Source: Microthrixaceae bacterium (GTDB lineage: Bacteria; Actinomycetota; Acidimicrobiia; Acidimicrobiales; Acidimicrobilacustridaceae). Taken from it: DNA of 53,603 bases. This document shows, in pieces, positions 849 to 27,109 of the stretch. Within the stretch, counting starts at the first letter, position 1. Every line of letters starts with the position of its first letter. Under the pieces are notes generated by a model. That model worked only from the letters and a program-made list of their open reading frames with translations. It did no database searches and was not told the origin of the DNA. The DNA is taken from the NCBI GenBank assembly GCA_947449015.1, contig CANFQA010000015.1, forward strand, positions 1 to 53,603, given 5' to 3'. A program made the translations under genes and the position numbers.

Positions 849-2459
849 CTACTCCCCGGCGTGCAGAAGGCCGAACAGGAGCGAATCCATCAGCGCCTGC
901 CAGGAGGCCTCGATGACGTTGCTGTCGACACCGACAGTGGTCCAGACCCGATCGCCATTGGTGGAATCGATCAGCACCCGCACCACTGCGCCGGTCGCGG
1001 CACCACCCTCAACAACACGGACCTTGAAATCGGTGAGATGAATACGGCCAAGCGCCGGAAACGATGCGCCAAGCGCGGCACGAACCGCCGAGTCGAGCGC
1101 ATTCACCGGTCCGTTGCCCTCGCCGGTGGCTGTCACGGTCTCACCGTCAATACGGACAGTCACAGTGGCAGTGGTGGCAACCGAGATCTCAGCAGCAGCC
1201 TCATGGTGGATGCTGGTGACCTCATAGGACACGATCTCGAAGAAGTCCTGTCGCCAGCCAGTGGCCAGTCGCATGCGCAACTCAAGCGAGGCGTCGGCCG
1301 ATTCGAAGAGCCAGCCCTCTGATTCAAGGAGCTTGAGCTGCTCGGAAAGTTCGCCGGTGGCTTTGGCGTCAATCTCGACACCGAACTCCTCGGCTTTCAT
1401 CGCCATGCCAGCTCGACCACCAAGATCAGACACCAACACCCGGGTGTGATTGCCGACCACTGCAGGATCAATGTGCTCATAGGTGGCGCCACCGGCGCGA
1501 CCAAGGGCTGAGGTGTGCAGTCCACCCTTATGGGCGAACGCAGACTGACCGACGAATGGATCTGCCGGATGCGGAGGAAGATTGACCAACTCTGCGACGC
1601 GATGGCTCACCACGGTAAGTCGATCGAGATGCCCCTCGGGCAGCGTGGCGATGCCGAGCTTGAGCGTGAGGTCGGGAATGACAGTCATGAGGTTGGCATT
1701 GCCAGTGCGCTCGCCATACCCGTTGACGGTTCCTTGCACCTGCGTGGCACCGCCGAGCACAGCGGCAATGGAGTTCGCTACCGCGCAACCCGAATCGTTC
1801 TGCGTGTGAATGCCCACTGCGGTTCCTGCACCAAGGAATGACACGACCTCACCAGTGATGCGCTGCACTTCATGCGGCAGCGAACCGCCGTTGGTGTCAC
1901 ACAGCACCACGCAGTCGGCGCCATTGACCATTGCCGCCTCGAGAACCCTCAGCGCGAATTCAGCGTTGGCTTTGAAGCCGTCGAAGAAATGCTCAGCGTC
2001 GAAGAACACCCGCAGTCCCTCTCGCTTGAGGAACGCGACGGACTCCCCCACCATGGCGACGCCTTCATCAAGCGTGGTGCGCAAGGCTTCAATGACGTGG
2101 AAGTCCCAGCTTTTGCCCACGATGCAGGCAGTGGAGGTGCCGGCCTCAACCAGCGCGGCGAGTGTGGGATCCACGTCGACCTTGCCTGCGGGACGACGGG
2201 TCGAACCGAACGCCACAAGCTCCGCGGTACTGAGCGTCAGTTCCTTCGGAGCGCGCTTGAAGAACTCTGCGTCTTTGGGATTGGCCTGCGGGTAGCCGCC
2301 TTCAATCCAGCGAACGCCGAGATACTCCAGTTGCTCAGCAACACGGAGTTTGTCGTCAACAGTGAGCGAGATTCCCTCGAACTGCGCGCCATCACGCAAT
2401 GTCGTGTCGAAGATTTCGACCGACGACGGCAGCGCCCGGAGGGCGTCCTCAGCGGACAT
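849..2459 (-). CDS. cimA: Citramalate synthase / alpha-isopropylmalate synthase family protein
   Basis: This 536-residue member of the isopropylmalate synthase superfamily begins its TIM barrel with FDTTLRDGAQFEGISLTVDDK, where the Arg-Asp pair is catalytic and metal-binding. The metal-site His-x-His equivalent is in GIHTQNDSGCAVAN. A C-terminal regulatory (LeuA dimer type) domain occupies roughly residues 400-530. The GAQFEGISLTV version of the motif, with ALVEAGTSTACIVGKSWDFHV, is typical of the (R)-citramalate synthase branch (TIGR00977) rather than of LeuA, and a separate leuA is present at 11.5 kb. It would condense pyruvate and acetyl-CoA to citramalate, which LeuCD and LeuB convert to 2-ketobutyrate for isoleucine. 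The ATG overlaps the ilvE end by 11 bases and is preceded by TTGGAG, so translation is probably coupled to ilvE. Confidence 0.88.
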   Translation of the reverse strand: MSAEDALRALPSSVEIFDTTLRDGAQFEGISLTVDDKLRVAEQLEYLGVRWIEGGYPQANPKDAEFFKRAPKELTLSTAELVAFGSTRRPAGKVDVDPTLAALVEAGTSTACIVGKSWDFHVIEALRTTLDEGVAMVGESVAFLKREGLRVFFDAEHFFDGFKANAEFALRVLEAAMVNGADCVVLCDTNGGSLPHEVQRITGEVVSFLGAGTAVGIHTQNDSGCAVANSIAAVLGGATQVQGTVNGYGERTGNANLMTVIPDLTLKLGIATLPEGHLDRLTVVSHRVAELVNLPPHPADPFVGQSAFAHKGGLHTSALGRAGGATYEHIDPAVVGNHTRVLVSDLGGRAGMAMKAEEFGVEIDAKATGELSEQLKLLESEGWLFESADASLELRMRLATGWRQDFFEIVSYEVTSIHHEAAAEISVATTATVTVRIDGETVTATGEGNGPVNALDSAVRAALGASFPALGRIHLTDFKVRVVEGGAATGAVVRVLIDSTNGDRVWTTVGVDSNVIEASWQALMDSLLFGLLHAGE

Positions 2460-11528: not shown

Positions 11529-13127
11529 TCAGCGCAATGAGCCGGGACGGGCGACCTTGGTGGGGTCCTCACCCGACTTCTGCACCCGCACGATGCGGTT
11601 GATGGCATTGAGGAAGGCGCGAGCCGAGGCCTCGACCACATCAGTGGAAAGACCGCGACCGGGCATGGACAGTCCGTCAACGTTGAAGCGCAGCGCCACA
11701 TCGGCAAGCGCATCGACATCACCACTCACCGAATGCACGGTGTAGCCGGTGAGCGTTCCATGCACGCCGGTGGCCATCTTGATGGCCTGACATGCGGCGT
11801 CGACCATGCCGCCACCCTCTGCAGTGGCTTCCATGCTTTCGCCATCGTGAGTTACGACCACCGTGGCGGTCGGAGTCGTCGTCGAACCACCACGGCAGTC
11901 CACCGACACGAGCTGGAACGCATAGTGCACGGTGTCACCAATCTCTTCGGCAACCAGTGCTTCCAGATCGGCATCACTCAGTTCCACCTTGCGATCAGCC
12001 AGTTCCTTGAACCGAGTGAACGCGGAATCTAGGGCGTCGCCGCTCAGGTCGTATCCCATGGTCTTGAGCCGATCGGCGAACGCGTGACGACCGGAGTGCT
12101 TGCCCAGCACGATCTTCGTTTCGCCCTGGCCGACGGCGGCCGGATCCATGATCTCGTAGGTGCTGGGGTCGCTCAGCATCCCGTGCTGATGGATGCCCGA
12201 CTCATGGGCGAACGCGTTACGGCCCACAACGGCCTTGTTGTACTGCACCGCATAGCCAGTGAGACGACTGACCAAGCGACTGGTACGGGCCAGTTCCTCG
12301 GAGCGGATGGCACAGTCGATGCCGCCGTAGTAATCCGAACGAGTGCGCATGGCCATAACGATCTCTTCGAGCGCCGCGTTGCCCGCCCGCTCCCCCAGAC
12401 CGTTGATGGCGCATTCGATCTGCCGTGCACCGGCGTGCACCGCGGCCATGGAGTTGGCCACTGCCATACCCAGGTCGTTATGGCAGTGGGTGGAGATGAT
12501 GTAATCGCCCTTCACGAAATTACGGACGTCGGCGAGACGCGTGGCGTACTCGGCCGGCATGCCGTAGCCAACGGTGTCAGGGATGTTGAGCGTGGTGGCA
12601 CCGTTGTCCACGGCGATCTGCAGTACCTCGCACATGAAGTCGAAATCAGAACGCGAGGCATCCTCGGGAGAGAACTCGACATCGCTGGTGTAGTTGCGGG
12701 CGTGCGCAACGGCGGAGGCGGTCTCGGCCTTCACCTGATCCGGGGTCATGCGCAACTTGTGCTTCATATGCGTCTCGCTGGTGGCGATGAACACATGGAT
12801 GCGACGACGGGTGGCCGGTTCGATGGCCTCCCAGCAACGATCGACATCCTTCAGCGCCGTGCGGGAAAGGCCACAGATGACCGGGCCGGAGACGCTGCGG
12901 GCGATGGCCTGCACGCTCTCGAAGTCGCCCTGGCTAGCGATGGGGAATCCGGCTTCGATGACGTCGACGCCGAGGCGGGCCAACTGCTCGGCGATCTCGA
13001 CCTTTTCGCCCTGATCGAGCGAGATACCCGGCGACTGCTCGCCATCGCGCAATGTGGTGTCGAAGATGATGATGCGGTTCGGATCGGCAGCGACGATCTC
13101 GACTGGTGAAGAATCGGTGATGCTCAT
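11529..13127 (-). CDS. leuA: 2-isopropylmalate synthase
   Basis: This enzyme commits 2-ketoisovalerate to leucine by condensing it with acetyl-CoA (532 residues). The barrel starts with IIFDTTLRDGEQSPGISLDQGEKVEIAEQL. The metal-site HCHNDLGMAVANSMAAVHAGARQIECAINGLGERAGN and HESGIHQHGML blocks are present. A C-terminal allosteric domain (about residues 390-510) should bind leucine. The start has GAAAGG 7 bases upstream of the ATG. It is the only gene of its transcript before the leuD terminator, and it is preceded by a leader peptide and attenuator at 13223-13361. Feedback inhibition plus attenuation would give two layers of leucine control. Confidence 0.96.
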   Translation of the reverse strand: MSITDSSPVEIVAADPNRIIIFDTTLRDGEQSPGISLDQGEKVEIAEQLARLGVDVIEAGFPIASQGDFESVQAIARSVSGPVICGLSRTALKDVDRCWEAIEPATRRRIHVFIATSETHMKHKLRMTPDQVKAETASAVAHARNYTSDVEFSPEDASRSDFDFMCEVLQIAVDNGATTLNIPDTVGYGMPAEYATRLADVRNFVKGDYIISTHCHNDLGMAVANSMAAVHAGARQIECAINGLGERAGNAALEEIVMAMRTRSDYYGGIDCAIRSEELARTSRLVSRLTGYAVQYNKAVVGRNAFAHESGIHQHGMLSDPSTYEIMDPAAVGQGETKIVLGKHSGRHAFADRLKTMGYDLSGDALDSAFTRFKELADRKVELSDADLEALVAEEIGDTVHYAFQLVSVDCRGGSTTTPTATVVVTHDGESMEATAEGGGMVDAACQAIKMATGVHGTLTGYTVHSVSGDVDALADVALRFNVDGLSMPGRGLSTDVVEASARAFLNAINRIVRVQKSGEDPTKVARPGSLR

Positions 13128-13222
13128 GGGAATGCCTTTCGGGTGCCCACTGTGTGGGCGGTGCGGGAAGAGTCTGCTCCAGATGGGGACGGGCGCCTGT
13201 GATCAACACGGGCCGGAGAACG

Positions 13223-13254
13223 AAAAAACCTCCTGGCCCGAGGGCACAGGAGGT
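13223..13254 (-). terminator. Attenuator terminator upstream of leuA
   Basis: On the minus strand ACCTCCTG pairs with CAGGAGGT around an inner GCCC/GGGC stem, and a run of six T follows directly. It lies 96 bases before the leuA ATG and 29 bases after the leader-peptide stop. A competing stem pairs AGGT and CGAGC just after the peptide with GCTCG and ACCT, and would consume the 5' arm of the terminator. This arrangement is that of a leucine attenuator. Confidence 0.8.
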
Positions 13255-13283
13255 CGACGAGCACCGGTATGGGGGCGCTCGCC

Positions 13284-13325
13284 CTACCTAAGGAGCAGTT
13301 CCGAGAAGTTGTTGTGCGTGCACAT
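13284..13325 (-). CDS. leuL: leuA leader peptide (13 aa, three consecutive Leu codons)
   Basis: The short frame ATG...TAG encodes MCTHNNFSELLLR, with consecutive CTG, CTC and CTT leucine codons near the end. It sits between a promoter and an intrinsic terminator upstream of leuA. By analogy with known attenuators, scarce leucyl-tRNA would stall the ribosome on these codons and favour the alternative stem over the terminator. No ribosome site precedes the ATG; the -10 hexamer CAGACT is 7 bases upstream, so the peptide seems to be read from a leaderless or nearly leaderless transcript. The peptide is far too short for ordinary gene finding. Confidence 0.78.
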   Translation of the reverse strand: MCTHNNFSELLLR

Positions 13326-13332
13326 GGGAATA

Positions 13333-13361
13333 AGTCTGCCGCGCCTCGAGCCCAGTTGCAA
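13333..13361 (-). promoter_or_regulatory. Promoter of the leuL-leuA transcript
   Basis: On the minus strand a -35 hexamer TTGCAA (13356-13361) and a -10 hexamer CAGACT (13333-13338) are separated by exactly 17 bases. The leader-peptide ATG follows the -10 box after 7 bases. This is one of the few promoters here with a recognisable -35 element. Confidence 0.65.
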
Positions 13362-13376
13362 CCCCCGCACTGGGTC

Positions 13377-14933
13377 TTACAGGGTGTCGACCGAGACAAT
13401 CCCTTCCACGGCACGCAATGTGTCGCAGACCGACTCGGGAACCTCTTCGGTGGTGGCGAGCACCATCATGGCCGAGGCGCCACTGGCGGCAGTGCCGACG
13501 TCCATATCGGCGATGTTCACGCCGGAGTCGCCGACAATGGTTCCAACCCGTCCGATCATTCCGGGGCGGTCGTCGTTACGCACAACGAGCATGTGGCCGG
13601 CCGGAGGCACATCAACGCGGTGATCGTCGACCATCACGAGACGAGGTTCCCCGTTGAGCCCGACAAGCGTGCCGGCAATGCTGTGGCCCGCACCCCGCAC
13701 AGTCACGAGGTTGATGTAGGCGTGTGAGGTGGTGGAGGTGGTCTCGGCAACAGTGATGCCGTGCTCCTCGGCCAGCTTGGGCGCATTCACGAACGACACA
13801 GGGTCATCGCTGATGCGACCGAAGAAACCCTTCAACAACGAGAGCGTAAGAATGCGCGTGTCGTAACCGGCGATCTCGCCTTCATAACTGACCTCGAGCC
13901 TGTCAGCCGCCCCGGACAGACCAGCAAACAGTGCACCAAGACGCTCGACGAGACCGAGGAACGGACGCACAACCTCACTGGCTTCGGCGGCATTGACATT
14001 GACGGCGAACGGAACGAACTCACCGGCGAGAGCGAGGCCGACCATCTCGGCAATCGTGTCGCCCGCCTTGTCCTGAGCCTCATGGGTGCTGGCACCAAGA
14101 TGCGGGGTGACCACAACCTGGGGCAGTTCGAACAGCGGCGACTCGGTGGTGGGTTCCTTGTCGAACACGTCAAGCGCCGCGCCGCCGACATGGCCTGAGC
14201 GAATGGCATCGGCGAGATCGCTCTCAACGATGATGCCGCCGCGGGCCACGTTGATGATGCGCACGCCAGGCTTGGTTTTGGCGAGAGTTTCAGCGTTGAA
14301 CAGTCCGATGGTCTCGGGAGTCTTGGCCACATGGAGGGTGATGAAATCGCTCTGGGCGAGCAGTGTGTCGAAGTCGACGAGTTCGATGTTCATCTTGCGA
14401 CCCATCTCGGCCGATACGAACGGATCGAAGGCGATGAGACGCATGCCGAACGCCATAGCCCGCTGCGCAACGAGCTTGCCGATACGACCGAGTCCGACGA
14501 CACCAAGGGTCTTGTCGGAAAGTTCGACGCCAGTCCACTTGCTGCGTTCCCAGCGACCTGACACGAGCGCCGCATGGGCTTGGGGAACGTTGCGGGCCAC
14601 GGCCAACAGCAACGCCATCGTCTGCTCGGCCGCCGACAGGATGTTGGACTGCGGGGCGTTGACAACCATGACACCGCGCTCAGTGGCGGCTGCGGTGTCA
14701 ACGTTGTCGAGACCGATGCCGGCCCGGCCGACCACGATGAGATCAGTGCCGGCGGCAAGCACCTCAGCGGTGACGTCGGTGGCCGAGCGAATGATGAGCG
14801 CATGCGCACCAACGATGGCCTCGCACAGCTGCTCAGGACTCAGACCTTCCTGCACATCGACGGTGTGGCCTGCTGCGCGCAGTTGGTCGAGACCGCCATC
14901 GGCGATCGTTTCAGTGACGAGAATGCGTGCCAT
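13377..14933 (-). CDS. serA: D-3-phosphoglycerate dehydrogenase
   Basis: First enzyme of serine synthesis, oxidising 3-phosphoglycerate with NAD (518 residues, the long actinobacterial form). The Rossmann motif is LGVVGLGRIGKLVAQRAMAFGM. Catalytic blocks are INVARGGIIVESDLADAI (Arg), a Glu in DVFDKEP, and the His in VVTPHLGASTHEAQ. An intervening ASB domain (about 320-440) and a C-terminal ACT domain (DRPGMIGRVGTIVGDSGVNIADMDVG) should mediate serine feedback. The ATG follows AAGGATGAAGAG. The matching serC is at 18.4 kb on the other strand. An inverted repeat, CTGAC/GTCAG, lies 40 bases upstream. No serB was found in the window. Confidence 0.96.
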   Translation of the reverse strand: MARILVTETIADGGLDQLRAAGHTVDVQEGLSPEQLCEAIVGAHALIIRSATDVTAEVLAAGTDLIVVGRAGIGLDNVDTAAATERGVMVVNAPQSNILSAAEQTMALLLAVARNVPQAHAALVSGRWERSKWTGVELSDKTLGVVGLGRIGKLVAQRAMAFGMRLIAFDPFVSAEMGRKMNIELVDFDTLLAQSDFITLHVAKTPETIGLFNAETLAKTKPGVRIINVARGGIIVESDLADAIRSGHVGGAALDVFDKEPTTESPLFELPQVVVTPHLGASTHEAQDKAGDTIAEMVGLALAGEFVPFAVNVNAAEASEVVRPFLGLVERLGALFAGLSGAADRLEVSYEGEIAGYDTRILTLSLLKGFFGRISDDPVSFVNAPKLAEEHGITVAETTSTTSHAYINLVTVRGAGHSIAGTLVGLNGEPRLVMVDDHRVDVPPAGHMLVVRNDDRPGMIGRVGTIVGDSGVNIADMDVGTAASGASAMMVLATTEEVPESVCDTLRAVEGIVSVDTL

Positions 14934-25160: not shown

Positions 25161-26876
25161 TCACTCCCCAACCACGATGTCGGAGTTCGACTTCCCGGCG
25201 GGAACCATCGGGAAAACCTTCTCGCGAGCGTCAGTTCGGAAGTCGATGACCACAGGTCGATCGTCGATCTCGTTGGCCCGCTGAATTGCCGGCAACACAT
25301 CCTCGGGTGATTCGACGCGCATGCCAACACAACCCATCGCCTCGGCCCACATCTTGTAATCGGGAAGATCAGGTGAGAGGTACACCTCGCTGTAGCGCTC
25401 CTCGTAGAACATCTCCTGCCACTGGCGAACCATGCCGAGATAGGCGTTGTTGAGGATGGCGATCTTCACCGGGATGCGCTCGCTGGCTGCGGTGACGAGT
25501 TCCTGAGCGGTCATTTGGAAACAACCGTCGCCGTCGACCGCCCACACCATGCGATCGGGACGACCGACCTTGGCGCCAATGGCGGCCGGCACGGCGAAGC
25601 CCATGGTCCCGAGACCACCGGAGTTGATCCAGGTGTAGGGGTGGTTGAACTTCCAGTACTGAGCGGTCCACATCTGATGCTGGCCGACGCCGGAGGCCAC
25701 GATGCAGTCATCGGGCGTGTTGTCACGCAGCTGCTCAAGCACAAACTGCGGCTTGAGCAGTTCGCCGGTCTGGGACTGTTCGTAGGTGAGCGGGTACTTC
25801 TCCTGCCAACCGCTCAGCGTGGAACGCCATGAGGAACGATCCGGCTGGGTCTCGGTACCGAAGATCTTGATGGCGTTGATGAGTTCTTCGATGACGAGGC
25901 GGCAGTCGCCAGTGATGCCGACATCGGGACGGCGAACCTTGCCAAGTTCCGCGGGGTCGATATCAACATGAATGATCCTGGCGTGCGGGGCGAACTCTGC
26001 GAGCTTGCCGGTGACGCGATCGTCGAAGCGCGATCCAAGTGCGATGAGCAAATCAGATTCCTGCATCGACATAACCGCGGTGTAATTGCCGTGCATACCA
26101 GGCATGCCCAGACACAAGGGATGATCGTCCGGGATACCACCACGGCCCATCAGGGTGGTGACGACTGGAATGTCGACAAGTTCGGCCAGCGCGGTGAGCG
26201 CTTCAGCCGCACGCGCCTTGAGGATGCCGCCACCGGCGTAGAGCACCGGGCGTTCGCTGGCGAGGATGAGCCGAGCGGCAGCTTCGATCAGCGCAGGGTC
26301 GCCCTCCATCTGGGGGTTGTACCCGGCGAGATCAACCGAATCCGGCCAGTACCAATCCATGGCGGAGTTGGGATTGGTGGGATCGACGATGTCTTTCGGT
26401 ATGTCGACCAGCACCGGACCGGGACGACCAGTGGTGGCGATATGGAAGGCCTCGCGGATAACCCGCGGAATGTCTTCAGCCCGGGTGACCAGTTCATTGT
26501 GCTTGGTGATCGACCGGGTCATGCCCACCGTGTCGACCTCCTGGAAGGCGTCGGTGCCGATACCAGCAGTGCCCACCTGACCGGTGATGACAACCAGCGG
26601 CACTGAGTCCATGTAGGCGTCCGCGAGCGGGGTCACGATATTGGTGGCAGCTGGACCACTGGTGACCATGGCCACGCCGGGTCGACCGGTGGCATGGGCA
26701 TAGCCCTCGGCCATATGACCGGCACCCTGCTCATGACGAACAAGGATGTGACGGATCGGCGAGTCAATGATCGGGTCGTAGACCGGCAGGATTGCTCCGC
26801 CGGGGAGACCGAAAATGACTTCGACTCCTTCGAGTTCTAGGGACTTGATGAGGGCGGCGCCGCCGTTGGTCTTCAT
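25161..26876 (-). CDS. ilvB: Acetolactate synthase large (catalytic) subunit
   Basis: ThDP-dependent synthase (571 residues) forming acetolactate or acetohydroxybutyrate. The catalytic Glu is in ILVRHEQGAGHMAEGYAHATG. The central FAD-binding domain spans roughly 190-330. The ThDP motif is DGDGCFQMTAQELVTAASERIPVKIAILNNAYLGMVRQWQEMFYEERYSEV, typical of biosynthetic IlvB. The ATG at 26876 follows AAGGAATCCC; the frame stays open to 26966 but overlaps the attenuator. A leader peptide and hairpins at 26966-27070 indicate control by branched-chain aminoacyl-tRNA supply. Confidence 0.96.
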   Translation of the reverse strand: MKTNGGAALIKSLELEGVEVIFGLPGGAILPVYDPIIDSPIRHILVRHEQGAGHMAEGYAHATGRPGVAMVTSGPAATNIVTPLADAYMDSVPLVVITGQVGTAGIGTDAFQEVDTVGMTRSITKHNELVTRAEDIPRVIREAFHIATTGRPGPVLVDIPKDIVDPTNPNSAMDWYWPDSVDLAGYNPQMEGDPALIEAAARLILASERPVLYAGGGILKARAAEALTALAELVDIPVVTTLMGRGGIPDDHPLCLGMPGMHGNYTAVMSMQESDLLIALGSRFDDRVTGKLAEFAPHARIIHVDIDPAELGKVRRPDVGITGDCRLVIEELINAIKIFGTETQPDRSSWRSTLSGWQEKYPLTYEQSQTGELLKPQFVLEQLRDNTPDDCIVASGVGQHQMWTAQYWKFNHPYTWINSGGLGTMGFAVPAAIGAKVGRPDRMVWAVDGDGCFQMTAQELVTAASERIPVKIAILNNAYLGMVRQWQEMFYEERYSEVYLSPDLPDYKMWAEAMGCVGMRVESPEDVLPAIQRANEIDDRPVVIDFRTDAREKVFPMVPAGKSNSDIVVGE

Positions 26877-26993: not shown

Positions 26994-27020
26994 GCGCACG
27001 CGAGCAGAAGCCGCGTGCGC
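26994..27020 (-). promoter_or_regulatory. Upstream hairpin of the ilvB attenuator
   Basis: A perfect 9-bp stem, GCGCACGCG with CGCGTGCGC, begins at the stop codon of the leader peptide. It is the candidate pause or first-segment hairpin. A ribosome that finishes or stalls in the leader peptide would change its folding. Confidence 0.55.
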
Positions 27021-27070
27021 TAGCGGAGTACGACTACGAGCGAATTTGAAGTGATGACCGTCTTGCTCAT
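27020..27070 (-). CDS. ilvB leader peptide (16 aa, rich in Val/Leu/Ile codons)
   Basis: The frame encodes MSKTVITSNSLVVVLR and stops at TAG inside the first hairpin. Seven of 16 residues are branched-chain, with a run Leu-Val-Val-Val-Leu immediately before the hairpins, as expected for an ilv attenuator that senses several aminoacyl-tRNAs. The promoter candidate has TTGCTC (27104-27109) and CAGAAT (27080-27085) separated by 18 bases, and the ATG comes 9 bases after the -10 box with no ribosome site. Function is inferred from codon content and position. Confidence 0.72.
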   Translation of the reverse strand: MSKTVITSNSLVVVLR

Positions 27071-27079
27071 GGAACGGTC

Positions 27080-27109
27080 ATTCTGCCAGTGGGCCTCCAT
27101 TGGGAGCAA
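27080..27109 (-). promoter_or_regulatory. Promoter of the ilvBNC transcript
   Basis: TTGCTC and CAGAAT on the minus strand with an 18-base spacer. The predicted start is only two or three bases before the leader-peptide ATG. Confidence 0.5.

Follow-up and report, generated by a model that had tools for sequence, protein, structure and literature searches.

In attenuation of the trp type, the regulatory codons lie near the end of a short open reading frame (ORF), a terminator follows, and the pairings 1:2, 2:3 and 3:4 are exchanged for one another. Attenuation of the pyrBI type has, to our knowledge, no antiterminator. Among earlier studies, that of Morbach from 2000 is said to be on ilvBNC, and that of Canestrari from 2020 reportedly on polycysteine leaderless ORFs. 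Leaderless Leu leader peptides before leuA are known from other Actinobacteria. In Streptomyces lividans both LeuL1 (leuA) and LeuL2 (leuS) are leaderless, Leu-rich leader peptides, LeuL2 being followed by a hairpin and a U stretch, and in this they resemble the element presented here. They differ from it in that LeuL1 is, according to the authors, without a typical terminator, and that neither is described, in the parts of the paper compared, with a hairpin abutting the stop codon and a terminator abutting that hairpin (PMC8079986). The initial annotation of our locus had regarded a control peptide without a leader as its unusual feature; this had already been published for S. lividans, including a case before leuA (same passages). 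In Corynebacterium diphtheriae the leuA leader is given without a mapped start and the ilvB leader is leaderless (PMC5784534), and a leuA leader peptide is described for C. glutamicum (PMC4046766), as far as the portions of both papers used here go.

Three further groups of systems invite comparison. The LEU element (Seliverstov et al., 2005; PMC1262725), from the same phylum, likewise has a short ORF upstream of leuA that contains successive Leu codons. In the part of that paper used here, it is drawn as a pseudoknot or, alternatively, a hairpin; its base stem joins the Leu codons to the Shine-Dalgarno box of leuA, and a terminator is not described there. The element in our window (the whole stretch of 53,603 nucleotides analysed) has instead two distinct hairpins together with a U-run terminator, and does not conform to the LEU description; a LEU-type pseudoknot was rejected because the hairpins are sequential, with no crossing. 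Three other loci (L111, L114 and L127) look like LEU elements by our own reading, and are without the two-hairpin and terminator layout. The ilvB attenuators of Corynebacterium and Mycobacterium share with our element a uORF rich in BCAA codons, an upstream hairpin and an intrinsic terminator (PMC10272879, PMC11857589, PMC13236596); in the passages compared, mutually exclusive or overlapping pairings are drawn for them, whereas here the first hairpin and the terminator share no bases. Finally, pyrBI-type attenuation is similar in that closeness of the ribosome controls the terminator, and different in that pausing couples ribosome and polymerase and the leader ORF contains the terminator (PMC4824070, in part); in the leuA element the ORF ends about 30 nt before the terminator, and a hairpin would set the distance.

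In the passages of the published leader accounts that were compared, a terminator-type leuA element of insulated two-hairpin form and class-wide spread was not found, and it is this combination that we regard as new; the literature search on Acidimicrobiia and leader peptides returned nothing, and those on attenuators without an antiterminator yielded one paper at most. We suggest that the element is a leucine-sensing transcription attenuator of leuA in which the first hairpin would serve as a collapsible spacer that crowds the terminator and does not out-pair it. This proposal rests on comparative and modelling evidence, and we put the chances for and against it about level.

Leader elements before leuA and ilvB in the window

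The leuA leader element is located on the minus strand, between serA (which ends at 13377) and leuA (which starts at 13127), and consists of the following parts, listed with the two genes.

13377..14933, minus strand: serA, the gene upstream of leuA (TIGR01327, 580 bits, cut-off 454)
13356..13361, minus strand: -35 hexamer TTGCAA, 4/6 to TTGACA, with a 17-nt spacer to the -10
13333..13338, minus strand: -10 hexamer CAGACT, 7 nt (TATTCCC) 5' of the ATG
13284..13325, minus strand: leader ORF MCTHNNFSELLLR, predicted to be leaderless, 13 codons, ATG at 13325-13323 and stop codon TAG at 13286-13284
13290..13298, minus strand: putative regulatory Leu codons CTG CTC CTT (codons 10-12), in the pattern LLL+x+stop
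13256..13283, minus strand: hairpin 1, 10 bp with an 8-nt loop, adjoining the stop codon (arms 13283-13274 / 13265-13256; from the fold)
13223..13255, minus strand: intrinsic terminator directly 3' of hairpin 1 (arms 13255-13247 / 13235-13227, inner GCC/GGC; from the fold)
13223..13228, minus strand: terminator U run, six T
11529..13127, minus strand: leuA, 2-isopropylmalate synthase, the putative regulated gene (TIGR00973, 671 bits, cut-off 598.7)

Most of what the initial annotation had read from this region is indeed there. The promoter (TTGCAA, 17 nt, CAGACT, then 7 nt and the ATG) runs from 13361 to 13323 on the minus strand; the consecutive CTG-CTC-CTT codons occupy 13298-13290 of a leader peptide conserved in most genomes of the class; and the terminator hairpin with its inner stem and six T before leuA (13255-13223) is borne out by fold and conservation. 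The GAGC/GCTC stem also exists, merely as a portion of the longer 10-bp hairpin 1. The RNA folding that had been proposed as a check agrees: the leader (13323-13210) folds at -51.2 kcal/mol compared to -36.8 +/- 3.5 kcal/mol for 200 dinucleotide shuffles, none of which is as low (z -4.1). No Shine-Dalgarno site precedes the leader ATG in the window. The terminator ends about 95 nt 5' of leuA, and no second terminator is visible by eye between serA and leuA. On a transcript reading through from serA the leader ATG would be internal and without a Shine-Dalgarno site, so that the leader would probably go untranslated; the terminator would then also serve serA.

A generic promoter and terminator consensus scan called neither feature in 13000-13500, and Rfam gave no family at the gathering score in the window; at E values up to 10, the leader region yielded only RF01790, on the opposite strand and below its cut-off (E 0.056). 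A scan for the arrangement itself (stop codon, abutting hairpin, abutting terminator) returned one site in the window, the leuA leader, and one site in total from ten dinucleotide-shuffled windows.

A second leader, of the same architecture, precedes ilvB, and was not picked up by that scan.

27080..27085, minus strand: ilvB leader -10 CAGAAT, 9 nt 5' of the ATG
27020..27070, minus strand: ilvB leader ORF MSKTVITSNSLVVVLR
27020-27013 / 27001-26994, minus strand: ilvB hairpin 1, which uses the G of the stop codon (own reading of the sequence)
26987-26980 / 26976-26969, minus strand: ilvB terminator, with a 6-nt gap to hairpin 1 (own reading)
25173..26876, minus strand: ilvB, acetolactate synthase large subunit (TIGR00118, 772 bits, cut-off 538)

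For this leader the stem finder prefers longer arms with a mismatch, and a gap of 0, and the U run of the terminator is weak (GTTTGCATT). Of 52 matches to ilvB loci of the order, 30 were read; 24 of these show the design, L245 doubtfully so, and six do not. The window also contains a LeuA paralogue (882-2444, minus strand), identified as a citramalate synthase by TIGR00977 (650 bits, cut-off 450).

Conservation and gene context across the class

Within the family, a leuA match was detected in 29 of 37 genomes (E <= 1e-150, the window's own included), and the element lies upstream of all 29. Two covariance models carried the comparison further. R1 was built from alignment A1, with 26 non-redundant sequences from the window's family only, and matches 207 of 395 genomes of the class (inferred to be Acidimicrobiia) at E <= 0.01. 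R2, a broader model, was made from 80 class members found by R1 and matches 232 of the 296 class genomes that are at least 90% complete, a figure in which those 80 match by construction, leaving 64 of the 296 without an R2 match. Both genome counts (207/395 and 232/296) are model matches, inspection having covered the fetched loci. The absence of peptide and terminator from close relatives had been named in the initial annotation as grounds for abandoning the idea; both are kept in most genomes of the class. The element appears to switch leuA across the whole class.

The statistics given below describe 119 elements, 29 reached via leuA in the family and 90 via R1, and therefore elements selected partly for their Leu codons and hairpins. 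Among 101 class loci (L137-L237), recovered with a model that includes the Leu-codon columns, 93 have the strict LLL+x+stop pattern in the expected place. The other eight were left out: two with the pattern outside the searched place (L142, L149), three with TTA or TTG codons (L200, L232, L233), one with an interrupted Leu run (L234), one with two codons before the stop (L235), and L221, an ilvB leader ending in ILVL. The duplicate loci L003 and L004 were also omitted, and the search rule, which allows G-U pairs and one or two mismatches, detected no hairpin in three of 122 elements, so that 119 were kept. L003 comes from a MAG titled 'Acidimicrobiia bacterium', with a LeuA 84% identical to that of the window and a leader the same as that of L089 (G009), likewise of the window's genus; L004 (CAMAYJ010000111.1) comes from a MAG titled Bifidobacterium breve, an organism name that looks wrong, with a LeuA 83% identical to the window's and a leader the same as that of L100 (G016:C111) of the window's genus.

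By best blastx, 68 of the 119 elements stand before a leuA most like the window's (the TIGR00973 kind) and 49 before one most like that of L122 (the TIGR00970 kind); the remaining two lie before leuS (TIGR00396) and at a contig end. The 90 elements found by R1 alone divide into 88 before leuA, one before leuS and one at a contig end. The leuA start lies 52-249 nt 3' of the leader stop among the analysed elements. Two genomes contain two leuA genes of different kinds, each with its own element (L158 and L088 in G034, L159 and L160 in G284; kinds judged by eye). Since the element is found before two kinds of leuA, the switch either stayed while the type of enzyme changed or was acquired by both.

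When R1 was applied to the whole phylum, 41 of 396 genomes matched at E <= 0.001, 29 inside the class and 12 outside. These 12 contain 13 loci, of which 11 were classified (two before leuA, three before leuS and six before ilvB); L282 and L284 were left unclassified, and L284 looks spurious. Because R1 is blind to the gene downstream, the finding of leuA, leuS and ilvB at the loci outside the class is an independent sign of an element that belongs to leucine and BCAA genes. The same type of element was seen before leucyl-tRNA synthetase in one class member (L209) and in three genomes outside the class (L273, L274, L278). L221 (G489), found by the leuA-trained model, has a leader ending in ILVL and then the stop, the two-hairpin layout, and an apparent acetolactate synthase gene downstream.

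Geometry of the leader and the search for competing pairings

In A1 the three Leu codons show no variation at their first two positions, while the third position varies in the first and second codons and hardly at all in the last; the leader peptide looks translated. A -10 hexamer (xAnnnT: A at position 2, T at position 6) is located 6-10 nt 5' of an in-frame ATG or GTG in 118 of 119 elements, start codon and -10 being the best-scoring choice for each element (ATG in 99, GTG in 20). With the controls chosen likewise and stops unchecked, the other two frames offer a start codon at all in 51 and 37 of the 119, and 10 and 11 pass the -10 test. In S. lividans the mapped distance from -10 to transcription start has a mean of 6.3 nt and a range of 4-9 nt (PMC8079986, in the part used here), and from these distances and the -10 spacing we expect the RNA to open with the start codon or at most a few bases upstream of it. 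The earlier claim that the ORF opens the RNA, or very nearly does so, agrees with this spacing, the 5' end itself being predicted, and its novelty is the part that falls away.

The same counts bear on a reading in which the RNA begins further upstream and translation of the peptide uses a weak site, or in which the ORF is untranslated and the structure is mainly a serA terminator; its first half is compatible with the other readings. The best gap between -10 and start codon is 9-10 nt in 43 of 119 elements, which could leave 2-3 untranslated bases, and 15 of 119 have letters resembling a Shine-Dalgarno site no more than 18 nt from the start; both observations favour such an account. We nevertheless consider it very unlikely, given the pattern of invariant and variable bases in the Leu codons, the near-universal in-frame start at 6-10 nt from a -10, the S. 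lividans distances, and the tight spacing between stop codon and hairpin 1: counted from the first stop-codon base, the hairpin begins at a distance of 2-4 nt in 113 of 119 elements. Comparison of the elements lends good support to the reading as an attenuator whose peptide is predicted to be leaderless.

Both hairpins are conserved as structures. In 25 distinct rows of the family, hairpin 1 is paired in 100% of two-sided cells and the terminator in 98.5% of cells; in A1, a structure-free MAFFT alignment, the overall figure is 99.2%. In the class-wide alignment A2 (79 distinct rows), all 21 modelled pairs have changes on both sides (10 of 10 in hairpin 1, 11 of 11 in the terminator), and 97.9% of cells are paired, a value reached by none of 500 shuffles, although A2, having been fitted to the model, is biased in its favour. 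From the first stop-codon base to the start of the terminator the distance is 28-31 nt (interquartile range).

The gap between hairpin 1 and terminator is 0 nt in 74 of 119 leuA-type elements and 0-2 nt in 107, a closeness which would suit antitermination by a flush hairpin with no ribosome crowding, where hairpin 1 stacks on the base of the terminator and hinders its last pairs in the exit channel of RNA polymerase. Were this true, untranslated leaders, such as those on serA readthrough transcripts, would read on into leuA. Flush abutment is not universal, however: in half of the ilvB elements (12 of 24) the gap measures 3-5 nt, and these wider gaps favour a spacer over strict hairpin stacking, so that we regard the flush-hairpin explanation as quite improbable. 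A strong hairpin directly 5' of a terminator is also in a possible position for a polymerase pause hairpin, a role proposed for the leader hairpin of C. glutamicum ilvBNC (PMC11857589, in part); hairpin 1 could then synchronise ribosome and polymerase, with the decision left to an unrecognised interaction with a protein or another RNA. Pausing by itself leaves readthrough unexplained, the loop of hairpin 1 ranges from 3 to 10 nt across elements, and no conserved unpaired motif was seen in it by eye, and we accordingly see only a slim chance for this account.

The leading edge of a ribosome lies at about +15/+16, where +1 onwards is counted from the first base of the P-site codon. On this scale, a ribosome whose A site is occupied by the stop codon places the last base of the hairpin 1 5' arm at +15 or +16 in 92 of 119 elements and leaves 16-20 nt of RNA uncovered ahead of the terminator in 101 of 119. 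If the A site is occupied instead by the first of the three final Leu codons, the 5' arm does not begin until +18 to +20 (113 of 119). A ribosome that finishes the peptide would therefore cover the arm and little more, and one stalled at the first Leu codon would free it. Folding with the ribosome as a masked stretch, a crude stand-in for co-transcriptional folding, gave a hairpin 1 probability of 0.98 with the ribosome at the first Leu codon, 0.45 at the third and 0.00 at the stop, and a mean terminator probability of 0.93-0.95 in every state (ribosome absent, first Leu, third Leu, stop). In this masking model, hairpin 1 is thus a second structure that would depend on the position of the ribosome.

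The classical alternative is three-segment attenuation, in which a base-paired antiterminator excludes the terminator when the ribosome stalls, for example through the 3' arm of hairpin 1 and the 5' side of the terminator, or the Leu codons and the 3' arm of the terminator. Complementarity of both sorts is plentiful in the window's family: 99% of cells are paired for GGYGC:GYGCC, which joins the 3' arm of hairpin 1 to the inner stem of the terminator, and 91% for CUCCU:AGGAG, between the Leu codons and the terminator 3' arm, and mutually exclusive or overlapping structures are drawn for the ilvB attenuators of other Actinobacteria in the passages compared (PMC13236596, PMC10272879, PMC11857589). 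Yet neither complementarity contains a pair that has changed on both sides, and neither exceeds a row-swapped control. This control, applied to 16 segment pairings in 106 non-redundant elements, found none in excess (z -1.5 to +3.3, the largest, between upstream codons and the hairpin 1 5' arm, being weaker than expected), and invariant or element-specific pairings would escape it; CUCCU:AGGAG has a mean of -10.7 kcal/mol in matched and swapped rows alike. The modelled probability of the terminator is moreover independent of ribosome position, and a ribosome stalled on the Leu codons would block and not promote their pairing. Three-segment attenuation is on this evidence unlikely, and a pairing too weak, plastic or invariant to co-vary may remain compatible with the data.

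Other candidate pairings fared no better. The initial annotation had proposed that AGGT and CGAGC compete for GCTCG and ACCT; CGAGC:GCTCG is hairpin 1 itself, which coexists with the terminator, and AGGT:ACCT, whose complementarity exists in the window, reaches only 58% paired cells among relatives, and was rejected as an antiterminator that is not conserved. Outward extension of hairpin 1 into the terminator showed no excess over the control, in a comparison biased by a stem finder that takes the longest stem. A reversed logic was considered because pairing of the hairpin 1 3' arm with the terminator, with the ribosome at the stop, would have leucine turn leuA on; it was set aside because no such pairing co-varies. 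A trp-type antiterminator that shares bases with the terminator was therefore not found by these sequence comparisons and folding models, with invariant pairings outside the reach of the test. The leuA element resembles the trp type in the position of its codons and in its terminator, and differs in that an exchange of pairings is unsupported.

A proposed mechanism and its significance

Comparison of the sequences supports the peptide, the -10 spacing, both hairpins and their abutment, the fit to the ribosome footprint, the lack of a co-varying alternative, and the association with leucine and BCAA genes. The position of the 5' end, the stalling, the sense in which leuA responds and, most of all, the crowding of the terminator are inferences. 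In the proposed sequence of events, transcription would start at the leader ATG or within a few bases of it, and a 70S ribosome would initiate on the end of the RNA and translate the 13 codons. With leucine present, the ribosome would reach the stop codon, its leading edge would cover the 5' arm of hairpin 1 and block that hairpin, and the roughly 16-20 nt of free RNA before the terminator would allow the terminator to work. When leucine is short, the ribosome would stall at the first Leu codons and hairpin 1 would fold against its leading edge, so that the RNA between ribosome and terminator would shrink to a few bases and the width of one helix; the stalled ribosome, hairpin 1 and RNA polymerase would then crowd the terminator, its closure would be incomplete, and leuA would be transcribed.

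Two considerations lead to this scheme. A biosynthetic gene is expected to be on when its product is short, and the stalled state with hairpin 1 folded must then be the state of readthrough; and a steric route is proposed because hairpin 1 takes no bases from the terminator. A precedent for crowding comes from Escherichia coli, where a nearby ribosome represses an intrinsic terminator and more than 27 nt from stop codon to terminator are needed for full function. In that case, as far as the portion of the paper used here describes it, the ribosome reaches into the terminator arm or comes almost into contact with it (PMC4824070), whereas here a folded hairpin would lie between them.

More generally, there may be a class of attenuators in the Actinomycetota, before leuA, leuS and ilvB, without an antiterminator pairing, in which a 10-bp spacer of footprint length and a stalled ribosome together block an independent terminator, and in which leaderless initiation sets the timing. 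We offer this generalisation tentatively, as a possibility that falls somewhat short of probable.

The element provides a regulatory assignment for leuA across much of a class that is known here mainly from metagenome-type assemblies, in a window that has no Rfam match. It also suggests that the initiation of control peptides at or near the 5' end, as in Streptomyces and Corynebacterium, extends through the Acidimicrobiia and across two types of leuA. If neither hairpin truly takes bases from the other, geometry alone can be enough for attenuation by a leader peptide.
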